Origin: Lachnospiraceae bacterium AC2029
Lineage (GTDB): Bacteria; Bacillota; Clostridia; Lachnospirales; Lachnospiraceae
Reading direction: 5' to 3'
Assembly: GCA_000703065.1 (NCBI GenBank)
Contig: JNLK01000001.1
Coordinates: 2,688,001 to 2,752,000, forward strand
DNA length: 64,000 nucleotides
Part shown: positions 9,211 through 22,490 of the stretch, piece after piece
Layout: the number at the start of each line of letters is the position of its first letter
How positions within the stretch are numbered: position 1 is the stretch's first letter
Notes under the pieces: generated by a model
What the model was told of the DNA's origin: nothing
Databases searched by the model: none
Seen by the model: the letters and a program-made list of their open reading frames with translations, nothing else
Program-made: the position numbers and the translations under genes

Positions 9211-9975
9211 ATGAGAGCAAGAGAGGTTATCATAAAGACAGACAAGCTTTCCAAAAGCTTCTCCATCGGAGGAAAGCAGCAGCATATCATCAAGAACCTG
9301 GATCTGGAGATCTATAAGGGTGATTTCACCGTGATCATGGGATCCTCCGGGGCAGGCAAGTCCACTCTCCTGTATGCCCTTTCCGGCATGGATCAGCCGA
9401 GTCTCGGAAGCATCGAATACGCCGGGAAGGAGATCACGAAAATGAATGATGATCAGCTGGCGGTGTTCCGCAGGAAGCACTGCGGTTTCGTCTTCCAGCA
9501 GATCCACCTGGTGGACAGCATGAGCATCATGGACAATGCGATCTCAACGGGCATGCTCACCGGACAGAAGCAGAAGGACCTGAAGAAGAAGGCAGGTAAG
9601 CTCTTCGAACGGGTGGGGATCAGCGAGGATATGACGAAGAAATTTCCCTCCCAGCTCTCCGGTGGCGAGGCGCAGCGGGCGGCCATGGTAAGAGCGGTGA
9701 TCAATGATCCGGACGTGGTCTTTGCGGACGAGCCCACCGGGGCGCTGAATTCGGCCGGCGTCAAGGCGGTTCTGGATGTGCTGACCGAGATCAACCGCAG
9801 CGGACAGTCGGTGGTAATGGTGACTCACGATATCAAGTCGGCGAGAAGAGCCAACCGGATCATTTATCTGCAGGACGGCGGGATCGTCGGAGAGTGTGAA
9901 CCCGGGGAATATGTGAGCGGAGACAAGGAGAGACACGAAAAGATACGTAAGTTTTTAGAGAACATGGGATGGTGA
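9211..9975 (+). CDS. ABC transporter ATP-binding protein (MacB/BceA type)
   Basis: The 254-residue cytoplasmic ATPase has Walker A GSSGAGKST, Q loop, signature LSGGEAQRAAMVRA, Walker B VVFADEPTGAL and switch histidine in MVTHD. PTGAL after Walker B is typical of the family pairing with FtsX-like permeases that export, or protect against, antimicrobial peptides and lipids. ATG at 9211 has AAGGAGG about ten bases upstream; upstream in-frame codons reach a TTG at 9157 with no ribosome site. The partner permease is the next gene, separated by an unusual 200-base structured element. The upstream two-component system may regulate the pair. Confidence 0.92.
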   Translation: MRAREVIIKTDKLSKSFSIGGKQQHIIKNLDLEIYKGDFTVIMGSSGAGKSTLLYALSGMDQPSLGSIEYAGKEITKMNDDQLAVFRRKHCGFVFQQIHLVDSMSIMDNAISTGMLTGQKQKDLKKKAGKLFERVGISEDMTKKFPSQLSGGEAQRAAMVRAVINDPDVVFADEPTGALNSAGVKAVLDVLTEINRSGQSVVMVTHDIKSARRANRIIYLQDGGIVGECEPGEYVSGDKERHEKIRKFLENMGW

Positions 9976-9982
9976 ATCGTTG

Positions 9983-10157
9983 CTATTCACAAACGCATAG
10001 GTGAAAGACTGACGCATGCTTGCATGCCAGGCAGGCTTTTCGCCTATGCGGTCTGCGAAGCAGACAACCTTCCGCAACCGCCACAGTCATGAGCCGCGGA
10101 GCGGCGATATACGCGTGAAGCGCGGATAGACTGTGGTCGGCGGAAGGTTGTGAATAG
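9983..10157 (+). repeat. structured intergenic repeat element, copy 1
   Basis: Bounded by the inverted repeat CTATTCACAA (9983-9992) and TTGTGAATAG (10148-10157). Inside are, in order: hairpin H1 (CGCATAGG 9994-10001 with CCTATGCG 10043-10050, inner arm GCATGCTTGCATGC 10014-10027); hairpin H2 (GTCTGC-GAA-GCAGAC, 10051-10065); and a three-way junction. The junction has stem AACCTTCCGC (10066-10075) with GCGGAAGGTT (10140-10149), stem CCACAGTC (10081-10088) with GACTGTGG (10129-10136), and two apical hairpins, GCCGC-GGA-GCGGC (10093-10105) and CGCG-TGAAG-CGCG (10112-10124). The layout matches the cluster at 19347-19757. It lies inside the ABC ATPase-permease operon, so it is probably transcribed. 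Whether it works as RNA or is a mobile repeat is unknown. Confidence 0.85.
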
Positions 10158-15232: not shown

Positions 15233-17725
15233 ATGATTCTTATTGACACACAAAAGGAAGAGTTTAGTAAGCTCAGGCAGATCCGAGTCCTGAATAAAGC
15301 CGAAGAAGAGAATCAGTTCTATGGAGATTTTCTGCTGATCGGTCTCGGCGGAGTCGGACGTCAGTGTGTAACTGCATATAAGAAAATGATGCAGGGCAGG
15401 ACAAAACAGGAGGATAATATCCATTATCTTCTGATCGATTCGGATATTCCGGAGATGGAGGCAACCATTCAGGATGCAAGAGAGGGGATCGGACTCAATG
15501 CACTGGAGGTCATCAGTATCTATCGCCCGAATCTGGAGCATATCCTGGAGACCGGAACACCGGAGGGACCGGTACAGAGTACCATCGCCAAGTGGATGCG
15601 TCCGGATTTTCCGGCGATCACCATCGGCAGAGACGGTGCCAAGGGCAATCGTGCCATAGGCCGTCTCATGTTCTCGAACGCATATGAGGATATGCGGATC
15701 CTTCTTTTTGAGAAACTGGATGAGGTCTATAACCGTTCCGCATCCGGCAAGCTGGATGTTATGATCGTGACCGGCATTTCCGGAGGTACCGGCAGCGGTA
15801 TCCTTGCGGATGTTGCCTATAATATCCGTGCCTACGGACGGTCCAAGAAGTGGCAGAACTTCCGCGTGGGCGGATGTCTTCTGACTCCGGATGTACTTTT
15901 TGCAAATTCCTCCCTGGACTGGGAGAAGCGAAGCGTTCTGGAGGCAAATGCCTACGCAACGCTGAAGGAGATGGAGACGCTCATGACGCTTACCGAGCGC
16001 GGGGAGGCATATACCTTCGAGAGCGGAACCCATCGTGTCTCCATGAAGGAGAATATCTTTGATTCCTGCATGCTGGTATCCGGCAAGGAGGATGAGCAGG
16101 GATATCTTCCGGAGCATGTCATTTACAGTGATATCGCATATTTCTGGTATAAGCTTACCTGCGTGAAGTATGTGGGAAGCCGCAGAGAAGAGGGAACGGA
16201 GATGCTTCTCCGGGATGCCTTCTTTGACAAGGCAGGTTCCCGACTCTTCAAGGTTCTGAACGAATCCGACTATCGTATTCCCATCCGTGAGATCGAGAAT
16301 ATCTGCGAGTTCCAGGTCTTCAAGGAGGCATACAAGAGGCTTCATCAGCCTGTGGCGAACTCTGACAAGATGCAGGCAGACCTGAGGGATTGCTTCGGTG
16401 AGATCCGGGAATTCCTGGAGGGTCAGTCCGGTGATGATATCCATCTGCAGGCAAATGGACTGCTTCGTGTACAGTCCTATACCCGCCCGACCTATAAGCA
16501 GATCAAGAAGGGCGAGGACGAATTCCGGAATGCGGTTCCGCGGCAGCTGGACAGCTTCATGCGGGAAGTTCCTGTGATCGTCAAGTATATCAAGAACAGT
16601 ATGATGTCCTCTCTGGAACGTCATATCCAGGAGTATTTAAGAGTCTACGGACCTTTCCTTACCGTGCAGATGATCGGTTCTGCCGGCTTTGAAGGGCTGG
16701 AAGCAGATACGGGTATGGTGGCTGAGGCGAAGGCTCTGGAGGCAATGTGCCGCACACCTATGGAGAGCGGTGAATACCAGCGGATCATTGAATCCATCCT
16801 GCAGATGGTGCAGAAGCGTTTCTTCGCATTCCCGTCCGCCAAGAGAGAGACCGAGCGCGGATACTATGACGCCAGCGTAAAGCAGATCCTGGAGTCCGAG
16901 AGAAAGGCCATCCGCGAGGGACTGAACGATCAGGATGTCTTCGGTGACGTGATCCGTATGCTCCGTCAGCGTGCAGAGCAGATCTCCGACACATTCTCCA
17001 GATTCGATCAGGATCTCTACAACTCTGTAGAGGATCTGGCGGTAAGCGGAAATAATGTGATCGGTTATATGATGAAGAATGCAGTACGGCATGAGTATCT
17101 GCCGTCGGACTATGTGACGGAAGAGAAGATCGAAGATTTCCGCAAGGGCATCATCAATCTGATGGTAGGTCATGAGGCGGATATAGATAATGGTCGTGTG
17201 GTTCCGATCCGTCAGGAGATGGAGAAGGTATACCGGAATCTGCTTATGGGCATTGGCGGATATGCGCCCGAGAAGCTGATCGCTTCGGCATTCTCCAACA
17301 ACCCGATCACTCTGCAGGAGCTGAATATGATGTTCGTAGCCCCGTCAAATGAGACCCGGGCGGATATCATGCAGCGTGCCGCGCAGTCCTTTGTACAGGG
17401 TGCGACCGAGAAGATCGCGAAGAAGCAGCTCTGCCAGCTGAAGAAGGAAGGCATCAGCTTCCTGGAGACCCAGCGGATCATTTCCCTGCCCCAGAACATG
17501 CCCTATTTCTCTGAGGCGGTACGCAGGATTCTTGTTTCCGAGCCGTATAACGAACTGGATGAGACCATTACGCTGAATGCCGGTGAGGCTGAGATCTCCA
17601 TGGAGGATATGTATGTAAATGTTCCGAAGGAGCAGCTGCAGTGTATCGATGAGCTGAAGCAGTCCTACGATTCCGTAGACCGCGGAACCTTCTTCGGACT
17701 TCACACCAATGAAGCAGTGATGTAG
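15233..17725 (+). CDS. tubulin-like GTPase family protein (Tubulin_2 type)
   Basis: The 830-residue protein starts at ATG after AAGGAG. Its N-terminal third shows the tubulin/FtsZ GTPase plan: an early glycine-rich strand (LIGLGGVGRQC, near 37-47) and the tubulin signature GGTGSG at residues 184-189 within GISGGTGSGILADV. The remaining 550 residues are helical and unlike FtsZ or TubZ, so this belongs with the large bacterial tubulin-like proteins rather than the division protein. By family analogy it could bind GTP and perhaps polymerise; no cellular role is known to me. It is a single-gene unit with its own promoter and a weak terminator, lacking the von Willebrand-type partners such proteins sometimes have. 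Confidence 0.75.
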   Translation: MILIDTQKEEFSKLRQIRVLNKAEEENQFYGDFLLIGLGGVGRQCVTAYKKMMQGRTKQEDNIHYLLIDSDIPEMEATIQDAREGIGLNALEVISIYRPNLEHILETGTPEGPVQSTIAKWMRPDFPAITIGRDGAKGNRAIGRLMFSNAYEDMRILLFEKLDEVYNRSASGKLDVMIVTGISGGTGSGILADVAYNIRAYGRSKKWQNFRVGGCLLTPDVLFANSSLDWEKRSVLEANAYATLKEMETLMTLTERGEAYTFESGTHRVSMKENIFDSCMLVSGKEDEQGYLPEHVIYSDIAYFWYKLTCVKYVGSRREEGTEMLLRDAFFDKAGSRLFKVLNESDYRIPIREIENICEFQVFKEAYKRLHQPVANSDKMQADLRDCFGEIREFLEGQSGDDIHLQANGLLRVQSYTRPTYKQIKKGEDEFRNAVPRQLDSFMREVPVIVKYIKNSMMSSLERHIQEYLRVYGPFLTVQMIGSAGFEGLEADTGMVAEAKALEAMCRTPMESGEYQRIIESILQMVQKRFFAFPSAKRETERGYYDASVKQILESERKAIREGLNDQDVFGDVIRMLRQRAEQISDTFSRFDQDLYNSVEDLAVSGNNVIGYMMKNAVRHEYLPSDYVTEEKIEDFRKGIINLMVGHEADIDNGRVVPIRQEMEKVYRNLLMGIGGYAPEKLIASAFSNNPITLQELNMMFVAPSNETRADIMQRAAQSFVQGATEKIAKKQLCQLKKEGISFLETQRIISLPQNMPYFSEAVRRILVSEPYNELDETITLNAGEAEISMEDMYVNVPKEQLQCIDELKQSYDSVDRGTFFGLHTNEAVM

Positions 17726-17930: not shown

Positions 17931-19346
17931 ATGGGTGGATTTTTTGCGGCGGCACTGAAAGAAGATTGTGTATTTGATCTGTTCTATGGAACGGATTATC
18001 ATTCCCATCTGGGAACACGGCGTGCAGGACTTGCCGTGTATGGAAAGGACGGCTTCAATCGTGCCATCCATAATATCGAGAACGCTCCGTTCCGGAGCAA
18101 ATTCACAGGTGACCTGAAGGATATGGAAGGAAATATCGGTATCGGCTGTATCTCCGATTATGACCCCCAGCCTCTGATCGTGCGTTCCCATCACGGAACC
18201 TATGCGATCACTACCGTAGGTAAGGTCAATAATACCGAAGAACTTCTTGACCTGATCTTCCAGAAGGATCATACCCATTTCCTGGAAATGAGCGGCGGCG
18301 ACATCAATAAAACAGAGCTGGTTGCCACACTCATCAATACAAAAGACAATCTGGTGGAAGGAATCCGTTATGCACAGGAGGTGATCGACGGATCCATGAC
18401 CATTCTGCTTCTGACACAGAAGGGAATCTACTGTGCCCGCGATCGTTACGGAAGAACACCCGTGGTGATCGGAGAGAAGGAAAGCGGATACTGCGCCACA
18501 TTTGAATCCTTTGCCTATCTGAACCTGGGCTATAAGCCGGTTCGGGAGCTGGGCCCCGGGGAGATCGTAGTCATGACTCCCGAAGCAGTGACCACACTTT
18601 CCCAGCCGGGCAAGGAGATGAAGATCTGTACCTTCCTTTGGATCTACTATGGATATCCCTCCTCCGAATACGAGGGGATCTCCGTTGAGACCATGCGGAA
18701 TGCCTGCGGTACGAAGCTGGCTCAGCGTGACGGCTTCACCAAGGCCGATATCGACAGCGTTGCCGGCGTACCGGATTCCGGAACCGCGCATGCCATCGGC
18801 TATGCAAATGAGTCCGGCGTTCCCTTTGCCCGTCCGTTTGTAAAGTATACACCTACCTGGCCCCGGTCCTTTATGCCGACCCACCAGGATAAGCGAAATC
18901 TGATCGCTCATATGAAGCTGATCCCCGTACACGAGCTGATCGACGGAAAGCGCCTGCTTCTGATCGATGATTCCATCGTCCGCGGAACACAACTTCGCGA
19001 GACCACGGAATTCCTGTACGACAGCGGTGCCAAGGAGGTTCATATCCGTCCTGCCTGCCCGCCGCTCCTGTTCGGCTGCAAGTATATCAACTTCTCCCGT
19101 TCCACCTCAGAGATGGAACTGATCACCCGTCAGGTGATCTGCGAGGAAGAAGGACAGGAGGTAGCACGTACCGTCCTTGAGGACTATGCAAATCCGGATT
19201 CCGACCGTTATCACCGGATGCTGGACCGCATCCGCGAGCGCCTGAATTTCACAACCCTGGCCTATAACCGCCTGGATGACATGATCGCCGCGACAGGATT
19301 GCCGAAGGAGAAGCTTTGTACTTACTGCTGGGACGGTAGGGAATGA
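17931..19346 (+). CDS. amidophosphoribosyltransferase homologue without the catalytic cysteine
   Basis: The 471-residue protein aligns along its length with PurF, which makes phosphoribosylamine from PRPP and glutamine. The phosphoribosyltransferase half is intact by eye, with the PRPP loop LLLIDDSIVRGTQ near residues 342-354. The N-terminal glutaminase half keeps RRAG and the general fold, but the protein begins M-G-G-F-F where PurF has a processed Cys. No nucleophile is available for glutamine hydrolysis, so it cannot be an ordinary glutamine-dependent PurF. It may use free ammonia, serve another amidophosphoribosyl reaction, or be regulatory. ATG follows GGAGA. Single gene, not in a purine operon. 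Confidence 0.85.
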   Translation: MGGFFAAALKEDCVFDLFYGTDYHSHLGTRRAGLAVYGKDGFNRAIHNIENAPFRSKFTGDLKDMEGNIGIGCISDYDPQPLIVRSHHGTYAITTVGKVNNTEELLDLIFQKDHTHFLEMSGGDINKTELVATLINTKDNLVEGIRYAQEVIDGSMTILLLTQKGIYCARDRYGRTPVVIGEKESGYCATFESFAYLNLGYKPVRELGPGEIVVMTPEAVTTLSQPGKEMKICTFLWIYYGYPSSEYEGISVETMRNACGTKLAQRDGFTKADIDSVAGVPDSGTAHAIGYANESGVPFARPFVKYTPTWPRSFMPTHQDKRNLIAHMKLIPVHELIDGKRLLLIDDSIVRGTQLRETTEFLYDSGAKEVHIRPACPPLLFGCKYINFSRSTSEMELITRQVICEEEGQEVARTVLEDYANPDSDRYHRMLDRIRERLNFTTLAYNRLDDMIAATGLPKEKLCTYCWDGRE

Positions 19347-19530
19347 GATTCACAATAGAAAAACAGAAATGGCATTGCGTCATGCTTGCATGACAGCAAT
19401 GCCATTTCTGTTTTTCGTAGCTACGAAGTAGCCAGATCCACGTTCCGCCATGGCCAAAAGCACCGAAGGTGCGACATACGTGCGAAGCACGGATGGGCCG
19501 TGGTCGGGATGGGGATCTGATTGTGAATCG
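19347..19530 (+). repeat. structured intergenic repeat element, copy 2 (full length)
   Basis: Starts at the base after the PurF-like stop codon. It is bounded by GATTCACAAT (19347-19356) and ATTGTGAATC (19520-19529). It holds H1, an 18-bp stem around 19360-19415 with inner arm GTCATGCTTGCATGAC; H2, GCTAC-GAA-GTAGC (19420-19432); and a three-way junction with outer stem near 19434-19455 and 19495-19518 and apical hairpins GCACC-GAA-GGTGC (19460-19472) and CGTGC-GAA-GCACG (19479-19491). H1 is followed by TTTTT and could terminate the PurF-like transcript. Architecture matches copy 1, with different but compensating stem bases. Confidence 0.85.
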
Positions 19531-19538
19531 AATGAAGC

Positions 19539-19757
19539 AGGTTCTTCCACGATCCATCACGGACGAAGAGCGCCATAGGCGCGACATACGTGCGAAGCAC
19601 GGATGGTCCGTGATCGGGACGGGGAAGAAACGGTGAATCCGTGATAAAAGCGAAGTAGCCAGATCCACGTTCCGTCATGCCCATAAGCACCGAAGGTGCG
19701 ACGGACGCGCAAAGCGCGGACGGGGCGTGACCGGGACGGGGATTTGATTGTGAATCG
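19539..19757 (+). repeat. two further three-way-junction modules of the structured repeat
   Basis: Module C (19539-19640) has outer stem GGTTCTTCCACGATCC... paired with ...GGGACGGGGAAGAAAC and apical hairpins GCGCC-ATA-GGCGC and CGTGC-GAA-GCACG. Module D (19651-19757) has apical hairpins GCACC-GAA-GGTGC and CGCGC-AAA-GCGCG. Each module ends in GTGAATC or GTGAATCG. Neither has hairpin H1; a remnant of H2 (GCGAAGTAGC) precedes module D. These look like partial tandem copies of the element at 19347. Confidence 0.8.
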
Positions 19758-20450: not shown

Positions 20451-21872
20451 TCAATCTATAGATACGCCGGTTATAACCTTCCACGCTTGTCTTGCTGGCT
20501 TAATCTGTGAGTTTATATTCGGAACACTTCCTTGTACAGGGTATGTATATCCTTTTCCGACCTTCTTATTCGCCTCGTATGCCGAGAGTATATGTGCCTT
20601 GATTTGTTCAACTATCCGTCTTTCAAATGTCGGCTTTTTCAGTTTGTTTACGACTTCATTTAATCTTCCAGATCCTTTCTTTGCAAGGATCTTCGCCAGA
20701 TTGTTTCCGCCACGAATACTCCAGCTTGCATGATTATGCTTCATCCGTCTTGCTATCACGCTACCAATGTGATTTTCCATCGTTCCAAGATTTCGATATT
20801 CTAAGTTCTCTGGACTGTCTGGTATCAGAAGATCTCGTTGATTATATGGGATTAATCCGTGTCGATTGTTGGAAAAATAAGCAATCAACCGTTCAGCCTT
20901 TTCAATCTCATCACCATCGATCAGGCTGTTCCTGTATATCTCGAGATATTTAAACAATTCATCCAGTTCTTTCTGCTCCAGCAACGAATGGATTCGTTTT
21001 GCATGTTCCGGGTATGGCACATTTTCTTTGATGGCCTTGTTTCTATGAAACGGATCCAGCTGAAATACCGTATCAGAATCACAGATATTCTTTACCCATT
21101 CAGCTCCGTCTGCATTCATGATCCGAAGCTCAACCTCATCCATGTTATATATCTCTGCGATAGCCGCTTCTCTGTAGGCCTGAAATTCAGACGATGTTGA
21201 GAAACCTGCCACAACAACCTTTCCATCCAGGCTGTATCGGTTTTTCCCGGTCTTTTTCCATCCGTCATAGGCTATGCCAACCTTGATCTCACCCTTTGTG
21301 TTTCTTTCGCGCTGGAGCCTGACATAGACACCATCCGTTTCCTCAAAGAGCACGGGGGTTTCTTTTTCTCCGGATACATTTCCTGCTTTGTGCTCCTTCA
21401 CAAGCTGCCGTTCATCTTCGCAAACGGCCTCGCCTAACGACTGGATCACGTTCCATACACCCATAGCACTTATGGATTGTCCAGTCATCTCAGTGATCCT
21501 GCTTGCAGTTTCACGATAGGACGTCTCCGTGATCGAAGAAACCATCTGCTCAGCCATGTTCATTGAGATCAGGCCGACTCCGGATATCTCGAGCTGCTCA
21601 TCCAGCAGATGGACAAACTCTTTCAGTCCGTCCTCTCTGGTAACCTCATAAACCCGACGTCCGTACTCAACCTCACCATACACGGTCTTTACGGTTGTTT
21701 TTCGCTTCCCCTTATTCCGGTATGCCCCCTTATCTCTGGTTTCCATGAGATAGTCATCGTATCGTTCCAGAAACTCCTTGGTATAATCCCTTGCCCATTC
21801 ACATACCATCCGGAAAGTATTTTGTTCAAAAGCCTTGAAAGTCAGCTCGGTTTCATTTAACATAGTATTCAT
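20451..21872 (-). CDS. ISLre2-family transposase
   Basis: The 473-residue protein is recognisable as an ISLre2/UPF0236 transposase from its N-terminal region (FKAFEQNTFRMVCEWARDY), the segment YRNKGKRKTTVKTVYGEVEY and the C-terminal WSIRGGNNLAKILAKK. Acidic residues suited to a DDE-type core are present (FEETDGVYVRLQRER, VVAGFSTSSEFQAYRE), but I did not assign the triad. ATG at 21872 is chosen because AAGGAG lies seven bases upstream; the open frame extends ten codons farther to a TTG. A promoter sits at 21908-21936. The frame is intact, so the enzyme may be functional. Confidence 0.92.
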   Translation of the reverse strand: MNTMLNETELTFKAFEQNTFRMVCEWARDYTKEFLERYDDYLMETRDKGAYRNKGKRKTTVKTVYGEVEYGRRVYEVTREDGLKEFVHLLDEQLEISGVGLISMNMAEQMVSSITETSYRETASRITEMTGQSISAMGVWNVIQSLGEAVCEDERQLVKEHKAGNVSGEKETPVLFEETDGVYVRLQRERNTKGEIKVGIAYDGWKKTGKNRYSLDGKVVVAGFSTSSEFQAYREAAIAEIYNMDEVELRIMNADGAEWVKNICDSDTVFQLDPFHRNKAIKENVPYPEHAKRIHSLLEQKELDELFKYLEIYRNSLIDGDEIEKAERLIAYFSNNRHGLIPYNQRDLLIPDSPENLEYRNLGTMENHIGSVIARRMKHNHASWSIRGGNNLAKILAKKGSGRLNEVVNKLKKPTFERRIVEQIKAHILSAYEANKKVGKGYTYPVQGSVPNINSQIKPARQAWKVITGVSID

Positions 21873-21907
21873 CACATAGCTCCTTATCGATTTTGTCTGC
21901 AAACTAA

Positions 21908-22010: not shown

Positions 22011-22490
22011 TCATTTATGGTACGGTTCATTCCGCTGGATGCGATAGGAACGATAGATCTGCTCAAGGAGGATGACCCGCATCAGCTGGTGAGGAAAGGT
22101 CATTTTCGAGAAACTGAGCAGAAGGTTGGCCCGTTGGAGAACCTGGGGTGACAGGCCCAGGGAACCGCCGATCACAAACTGGATATGACTGGTCCCGCCG
22201 ACGGCAAGACGCTCCAGCTCGGCGGCAAAGCCTTCGCTGGTGAAGGATTTCCCTTCGATGGCAAGGGCGATCACATAGGCGTTGTCCTGGAGCTTTGAGA
22301 GCAGACGGACACCCTCCTTATCCTTGATCTGGCGGACTTCTTCCTCGCTTGCGCTGTCCGGAGTCTTCTCATCGGCAACCTCGATCTCACTGCATTTGCA
22401 GTAACGGCCGAGACGCTTCTTGTATTCCTCCAGTGCGCCCCGGAAGAAGCTTTCCTTCACCTTCCCCACACATACGATATCGATCTGCAT
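22011..22490 (-). CDS. rlmH: 23S rRNA (pseudouridine1915-N3)-methyltransferase
   Basis: The 159-residue protein has the usual RlmH length and typical segments: N-terminal IDIVCVGKVKESFF, core YVIALAIEGKSFTSEGFA, the SAM-binding knot region FVIGGSLGLSPQVLQRA, and C-terminal LLEQIYRSYRIQRNEPYHK. RlmH uses S-adenosylmethionine to methylate pseudouridine 1915 in helix 69 of 23S rRNA on assembled 70S ribosomes; the matching base is at 2051 of this window. Its stop lies only nine bases from the IS target duplication, so insertion spared the coding sequence but replaced what lay downstream. Confidence 0.96.
   Translation of the reverse strand: MQIDIVCVGKVKESFFRGALEEYKKRLGRYCKCSEIEVADEKTPDSASEEEVRQIKDKEGVRLLSKLQDNAYVIALAIEGKSFTSEGFAAELERLAVGGTSHIQFVIGGSLGLSPQVLQRANLLLSFSKMTFPHQLMRVILLEQIYRSYRIQRNEPYHK

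Follow-up and report, generated by a model that had tools for sequence, protein, structure and literature searches.

MITEs with stable transcripts include BOX, RUP and SPRITE of Streptococcus pneumoniae and QMITE2 of Coxiella burnetii; in a review that names them, BOX is modular and SPRITE is terminator-like, and terminator or riboswitch roles of MITEs are called conceivable (PMC10969869). The elements bcr1-3, of which bcr1 belongs to the Bacillus cereus group, are presented in another paper as MITE-like and often located in UTRs or in the gaps between operon genes (PMC3446304). REPs, according to a third, lower translation when they lie less than 16 nt from a stop codon (PMC12306157).

In this article, we describe a family of structured repeats from Lachnospiraceae whose kind is already known: they are MITE-like structured repeats and, for their position, recall the REPs of Escherichia coli. 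Like bcr1, BOX/RUP/SPRITE and QMITE2, they are short and non-coding, have inverted-repeat ends and target duplications, and are found as many dispersed intergenic copies with a stable predicted RNA. Unlike those MITEs, they have other ends and another sequence, a branched fold with tree-tested covariation, a fixed place behind stop codons in the genus of the genome analysed (the home genus) and a putative terminator arm with a context-dependent U-tract. With the REP/BIME of E. coli they share palindromic repeats behind stops on the sense strand, and the 0-16 nt spacing of most home-genus copies agrees with the window of fewer than 16 nt in which REPs lower translation. REPs, which are linked to RAYT transposases, are short simple hairpins, whereas the present elements are branched, about 175-190 nt long, and have inverted-repeat ends and 8-bp duplications. 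One of their arms, hairpin A, resembles intrinsic (Rho-independent) terminators in its A-rich 5' arm and, in convergent settings, its U-rich 3' arm, but it is enclosed in the larger P1 fold and its U-tract is absent in most co-directional settings. We have not seen described the family itself, an element of this kind whose branched fold covaries, or an arm U-tract that tracks gene context.

The element at the purF-like locus

The window analysed is a stretch of 64,000 nucleotides from Lachnospiraceae bacterium AC2029. In a first-pass annotation, three tandem modules, with hairpin stems that differ in bases and keep their pairing, had been singled out as the best candidate in the window for an undescribed element family. 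The modules exist on the + strand (19425-19530, 19534-19640 and 19652-19757), and the stems given for hairpin 1 (GCACC/GGTGC, GCGCC/GGCGC and GCACC/GGTGC) and hairpin 2 (CGTGC/GCACG twice, CGCGC/GCGCG) are those found. The further stems GCCGC/GCGGC and CGCG/CGCG are also present, their source being the other copy at 10057-10157. The linker GAYATAC occurs in three of the four copies; the closing GTGAATC, said to be conserved, is exact in the three modules, whereas the fourth copy ends in GTGAATAG. When copies are folded with their flanks, these modules prove to be one arm of a larger folded unit. The outer stem, the long hairpin A and the small hairpin B (19347-19432), which belong to the same fold, had not been described there, nor had mobility and the position behind stop codons.

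A covariance model, R1, was built from modules 1 and 3 only. Searched against the window, it recovers module 2 (E 3.3e-23) and a second locus (E 1.5e-18), and in the 3.86-Mb genome it gives 30 matches at E<=10, including 24 at E<=2e-5. Because modules 1 and 3 duplicate each other closely (mean column identity 93%), the evidence from the three modules by themselves is weak, and the strong evidence lies in the divergent family; recent duplication from one source, the concern attached to the initial claim, holds for modules 1 and 3 and not for the family. The features of the two elements in the window are as follows.

17931..19346, + strand: PurF-like gene (amidophosphoribosyltransferase); ORF with Pfam GATase_7; NCBIfam purF at 185.6 bits, the cutoff of 350 not being reached
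19347..19757, + strand: whole element, consisting of P1, hairpin A, hairpin B and arm C three times in tandem
19347..19356, + strand: 5' strand of P1, the outer stem, GATTCACAAT; predicted fold
19358..19416, + strand: hairpin A; 21-nt inverted repeat, 100% complementary, with a T-rich 3' arm; fold
19420..19432, + strand: hairpin B, GCTAC GAA GTAGC; fold; four of five pairs changed on both sides among 17 copies
19433..19519, + strand: arm C copy 1; fold z -6.04; R1 match 19425-19530
19520..19529, + strand: 3' strand of P1 for module 1, ATTGTGAATC; predicted fold
19542..19629, + strand: arm C copy 2, with hairpins D (19570-19582) and E (19589-19601); fold z -5.09; R1 E 3.3e-23
19660..19746, + strand: arm C copy 3, with hairpins D (19687-19699) and E (19706-19718); fold z -6.51; R1 match 19652-19757
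19747..19756, + strand: 3' strand of P1 for the whole array, ATTGTGAATC; predicted fold
9983-10157, + strand: second, single-module element; R1 match and fold
9983-9991/10149-10157, 9994-10050 and 10051-10065, + strand: P1, hairpin A and hairpin B of the second element; fold
10067-10148, + strand: arm C of the second element, with hairpins D (10093-10105) and E (10112-10124); fold

The stop codon of the purF-like gene (19344-19346) abuts the element, P1 starting at 19347. The 5' strand of P1 is predicted to pair with 19747-19756 when the whole array is folded, or with 19520-19529 when module 1 is folded alone. Hairpin A comprises a perfect outer stem of 21 bp, a bulge of 1 nt, an apical stem of 6 bp and a TTGC/CTTG-type loop, its 5' arm being A-rich and its 3' arm T-rich. 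In arm C copy 1, hairpins D (19460-19472) and E (19479-19491) branch from a three-way junction at the end of a long stem; copy 1 is the only one preceded by an intact hairpin B, which copies 2 and 3 lack. For each module, the + strand has a lower folding energy than any of 200 dinucleotide-preserving shuffles (z values above), and the corresponding z values on the reverse strand are -3.40, -5.19 and -2.31. The second element lies 7 nt behind the stop of an ABC-transporter ATPase-like gene, which ends at 9975, and the next same-strand ORF begins 20 nt downstream.

As to the surroundings of the locus, positions 15233-17725 (+), upstream of the purF-like gene, encode a protein of 830 aa in which a tubulin-like domain, Tubulin_2, is recognised at E 8.1e-68. 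A gene of the UPF0236 family (20451-21902, -), an ISLre2-type transposase, lies between a 124-aa ORF and an rlmH-like gene for a SPOUT methyltransferase (22011-22490). This gene is apparently absent from the relative L121, where the 124-aa ORF leads directly to the rlmH-like gene. It was considered as the autonomous partner of the element and rejected, as no link was found between its ends and the element ends.

Predicted fold and covariation

The sense-strand RNA is predicted to fold into one compact unit, in which the outer stem P1, of the general sequence CTATTCAC/GTGAATAG-like, closes a four-way junction with hairpin A, hairpin B and arm C inside it, the full element measuring ~175-190 nt. 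Hairpin A is long and has a CUUG-type apical loop and, in most copies read, a short bulge on its 3' side; hairpin B has 5 bp and a GAA-type triloop; arm C contains a recurrent conserved 1x2 internal loop (R opposite UC), and two hairpins with triloops, D and E, branch from the three-way junction at its end. Tandem arrays in which arm C is repeated, with or without an intact hairpin B, are found at several loci. In another genome (G202, contig 36, locus L324 at about 494-790), the apical part of the hairpin A region is itself repeated several times in tandem; multiplication is thus not confined to C among the internal modules. Hairpin A is missing at the loci L217-L220, L249, L250 and L258, where arm C begins at or near the stop, for example behind iorA and panB.

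Among 29 copies from this genome, 31 of 34 pairs are changed on both sides and 91.5% of the cells pair. Doubly changed cells number 216 in this set, where shuffles give 68.5 and slid controls 22-34. In the 17 copies with hairpin B, 31 of 36 pairs are changed on both sides (138 doubly changed cells against 45.2 after shuffling); the pair types of this set are less clear, 55 of 500 shuffles having reached the observed number. Since shuffles ignore relatedness, a test with a tree-based null was written along the lines of R-scape: a tree is built from the data, substitutions are redistributed on it to give the null, and pairs are scored by an APC-corrected G-test. In the home genus (82 of 87 sequences), 14 column pairs are significant at E<0.05, all within the 36-pair structure, of which 22 pairs are non-significant; in other genera (39 of 44 sequences), seven pairs are significant, all in the structure, and 28 are not. 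Neither set has a significant pair outside the structure, in alignments that were fitted to the structure of the model and so lean towards it. The covariation check that the first-pass annotation had called for was thus carried out by a script of R-scape design, and every significant pair of either set falls inside the structure.

In same-site orthologs of at least 70% identity, 169 doubly changed pairs are still paired and 32 are broken, and single changes have produced a wobble pair in 68 cases and a break in 165. In the home genus, 47 of 71 own pairings of P1 reach at least 11 of 12 Watson-Crick pairs, against 21 of 562 cross pairings. G-U pairs stand to A-C pairs as 104 to 44 in the home genus (among related sequences, which are not independent). 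The 17-sequence set has 19 G-U and 14 A-C pairs, and other genera have 32 and 29. The G-U excess favours the sense RNA in the home genus as the form in which the fold is kept, the mobile forms being compatible with RNA or DNA. Throughout this analysis, loci and sequences are related, so that counts and p-values are not independent, and several alignments were fitted to the model structure.

Distribution and novelty

A second covariance model, R2, which covers hairpin B and arm C, was built from 17 copies. It has 31 matches in this genome at E<=0.01, and at the same threshold 48 of the 61 genomes of the home genus match. In the family sample, 22 of 299 genomes match at E<=1e-4, the copy numbers there being minimum values from at most 12 scored candidates per genome. 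Two of 295 genomes sampled from the order match, both of them from the Lachnospiraceae family, and one of 398 sampled from the phylum, which is this genome itself; neither sample holds a match outside the family. Those relatives by purF that bear a name are Lachnospiraceae of the rumen and gut, most of them assembled from metagenomes. Phage and plasmid collections, searched with one element each, gave no match.

Against Rfam 15 at the gathering score, the window matches LSU rRNA and a tRNA only, 10 further loci have no match and nine more match tRNA only. At a relaxed threshold, six matches appear at the locus (E 0.057 to 3.6); they lie far below the gathering score and were taken as chance. 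The element family was not found in the open-access literature, which was the scope of the search. The family is real, absent from Rfam 15 and apparently undescribed, and the initial suggestion of an undescribed family under selection for structure is supported by the tree-based covariation together with the lack of an Rfam match.

Marks of mobility

The family consists of MITE-like mobile elements of Lachnospiraceae, and their mobility is well supported. In other genera (genomes G357, G202, G152 and G285), the ends of the element are terminal inverted repeats, GTTACTATTCAC...GTGAATAGTAAC. Exact GTTACTATTCAC ends occur at 21+21, 14+16, 9+9 and 7+9 places in four other-genus genomes, where a reversed-pattern control gives 0. 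The same search finds 1+2 in the genome of the window and none in G182, whose ends are a variant, with one control match per strand; five of the six genomes searched have end matches. Twenty other-genus copies could be read at both ends. Seven are flanked by an exact repeat of at least 8 bp (six of 8 bp, one of 10) and 11 have no visible target duplication, while the flanking 8-mers agree in at least seven of eight positions in nine of the 20 copies against three of 380 cross pairs, all from other genera.

The element is multi-copy, with the 31 R2 matches in this genome, and has no coding gene or transposase of its own. Among the end matches listed, no end pair surrounds a transposase that could be an autonomous partner, in draft assemblies that break at repeats; the candidate partner region L324 has no transposase among its ORFs of at least 60 aa. 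Solo ends and internal deletions are frequent. Two loci, L316 and L313, are deletion derivatives with little beyond the two ends, palindromes of about 30-33 bp.

Turnover is visible at the purF locus, for which 31 of 80 loci were searched with the model and 13 of these were also read by sequence. The model finds the element in two of the 31 relatives, L122 and, in altered form, L124; on reading, L121 keeps hairpins A and B, L132 has only an A-like hairpin, and neither L123 nor L125, whose PurF identity is in each case 90% or more, has any element. These differing states mean that presence at one site changes between close species and, as some of the closest relatives lack it, that the element is not essential there. 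In the home genus at large, the ends have drifted while P1 stays paired. The home-genus copies are old and common to several species at the same genes, and their fold, P1 included, has been kept by compensating changes.

Position behind stop codons

Gene context was read for 71 arrays from six home-genus genomes plus L122 and for 35 arrays from five other genera, the genomes having been chosen for the most or the strongest matches. Genes were called by a simple codon score and the start of P1 was set by a motif, and module 3 was not counted as a separate array. In the home genus, an upstream gene was called for 68 of the 71 arrays, 58 on the same strand and 10 on the opposite one, with none divergent. 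The same-strand stop lies within -10 to 20 nt of P1 in 50 of the 71 arrays, and in 49 of these P1 starts 0-16 nt after it. The same-strand class includes seven more arrays, at distances of -35 to -108, most of which are degenerate or consist of C only; measured against the model match, seven arrays have their stop between 25 nt before it and 24 nt inside it. For the other genera, calls were obtained for 33 of the 35 arrays (14 same-strand, 19 opposite, 9 divergent), and six arrays lie near a same-strand stop, four of them in G182. Near-stop arrays thus number 50 of 68 in the home genus against 6 of 33 in other genera (Fisher p 1.5e-7).

Twelve clusters of upstream genes are common to at least two genomes. 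In this genome, the upstream genes above family cutoffs include aroB, atpA, lepA, hisIE, a DAHP synthase gene, yebC and ilvC, to which iorA and panB are added for the C-only variants; the purF-like and ABC ATPase genes are below them. Recoding of the stop codon was considered and dropped, since the upstream genes are ordinary and several of them (aroB, atpA, lepA, hisIE, yebC and ilvC) reach the cutoffs. Behind the atpA copy, a same-strand ORF of 310 aa follows 21 nt downstream, presumably atpG from the operon order.

Retention behind stop codons in the home genus is well supported, with exceptions such as an antisense copy in a tRNA gene cluster. This antisense element is found within the cluster in three home-genus genomes (L209 4001-4114, L251 1501-1615 and L226 684-798). 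For 4 of 38 called genes of the window, an ordinary hairpin likewise starts 6-21 nt after the stop. Such a distance does not in itself imply that the ribosome is touched; the spacing supports a ribosome-linked role and does not prove it.

Hairpin A as a putative terminator arm

In the 50 near-stop home-genus arrays, a U-tract was scored as at least 6 T in 8 nt in the 3' arm of hairpin A. It is present in 15 of 16 convergent settings against 8 of 30 settings with a co-directional gene within 150 nt (Fisher p 2.3e-5, which is optimistic because some of the loci are orthologous), and in three of four other settings. In the other 22 of the 30 co-directional settings, hairpin A lacks the U-tract and the stem is kept. 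We read this pattern as selection that would favour termination at transcript ends and act against it within operons, the stem being kept in both. The loop TGCTTGCA occurs three times in the window, two of them in the two elements, where 1.44 are expected and 17 of 100 shuffles reach three; as a test of a generic terminator loop, this count neither proves nor excludes one.

Proposed role and alternative explanations

On balance, it seems likely that in this family a mobile element has been retained as a 3'-UTR or intercistronic RNA signal, combining an optional terminator with a REP-like structure at the mRNA end. The fold, the family, the marks of mobility, the position and the dependence of the U-tract on gene context are shown by the analysis, and we infer transcription of the element, termination by hairpin A and effects on decay or translation. 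The home-genus element would act in cis on the mRNA; hairpin A would serve as an intrinsic terminator at sites where transcripts ought to stop, and if a co-directional gene follows, A without its U-tract would let the element be transcribed through. There, the large fold beside the terminating ribosome may tune termination, the decay of the mRNA and how much the upstream gene yields relative to the downstream one, in the manner of E. coli REPs. A wider proposal, which we hold only tentatively, is that a transposable element has turned into a reusable RNA part, set behind stops across the genome and kept by compensating evolution, with gain or loss of the U-tract making it either a terminator or, in operons, a read-through, REP-like regulator that acts on termination and on the decay of the mRNA.

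Much of the evidence would also be expected of a purely selfish mobile element, whose fold is needed for transposition (as single-stranded DNA, a cruciform or RNA) and for which stops are the sites of least harm, with no gain to the host: the inverted-repeat ends and target duplications, the positions, which look random in four of the five other genera, the covariation of the structure in other genera too, and the losses at the purF locus. We consider this rather unlikely, as in the home genus the ends have drifted with P1 still paired, compensating changes keep the fold at shared, fixed sites, and the U-tract of hairpin A tracks gene context. Drifted ends, a kept fold and a contextual U-tract together argue for selection in place rather than on jumping. 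A plain family of transcription terminators, with hairpin A an ordinary intrinsic terminator and B and C its passengers, would fit the U-tract in nearly all convergent settings and the relatives L121 and L132, which keep A behind purF with C missing. It is made improbable by the 22 of 30 co-directional settings that keep the stem without a U-tract, by independent compensating changes in B, C and P1, and by the atpA copy, which stands 21 nt ahead of the next same-strand gene.

The compensating changes might themselves arise from quasipalindrome correction, that is template switching in DNA, rather than from selection. Such correction works on perfect hairpins such as A, and the near-equal G-U and A-C counts of other genera (32 to 29) agree with it, but A has kept its bulge and C its asymmetric internal loop, neither having been corrected, covariation links the distant arms of P1 and the branched stem of C, and not hairpins alone, and both the home-genus G-U excess (104 to 44) and the contextual U-tract go against it; we judge this explanation very improbable. 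Least credible of all is a trans-acting RNA or protein-binding sponge, in which tandem C modules would collect a protein and position would be incidental: conserved triloops and internal loops and the tandem C arrays at several loci are what one would look for, yet no promoter or independent transcription unit has been shown, and position and orientation in the home genus are far from incidental. We therefore return to the retained mobile element, acting as an mRNA-end signal, as the reading to be preferred.

Significance for Lachnospiraceae

Structured mobile repeats are common, and their RNA folds may or may not serve the host. The present family adds an unlisted RNA-fold family of Lachnospiraceae that is easily found by covariance models. 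It shows both states, freshly mobile in some genera and fixed behind stops in another, and with it one can test directly whether a mobile element has been domesticated as a regulatory RNA part.
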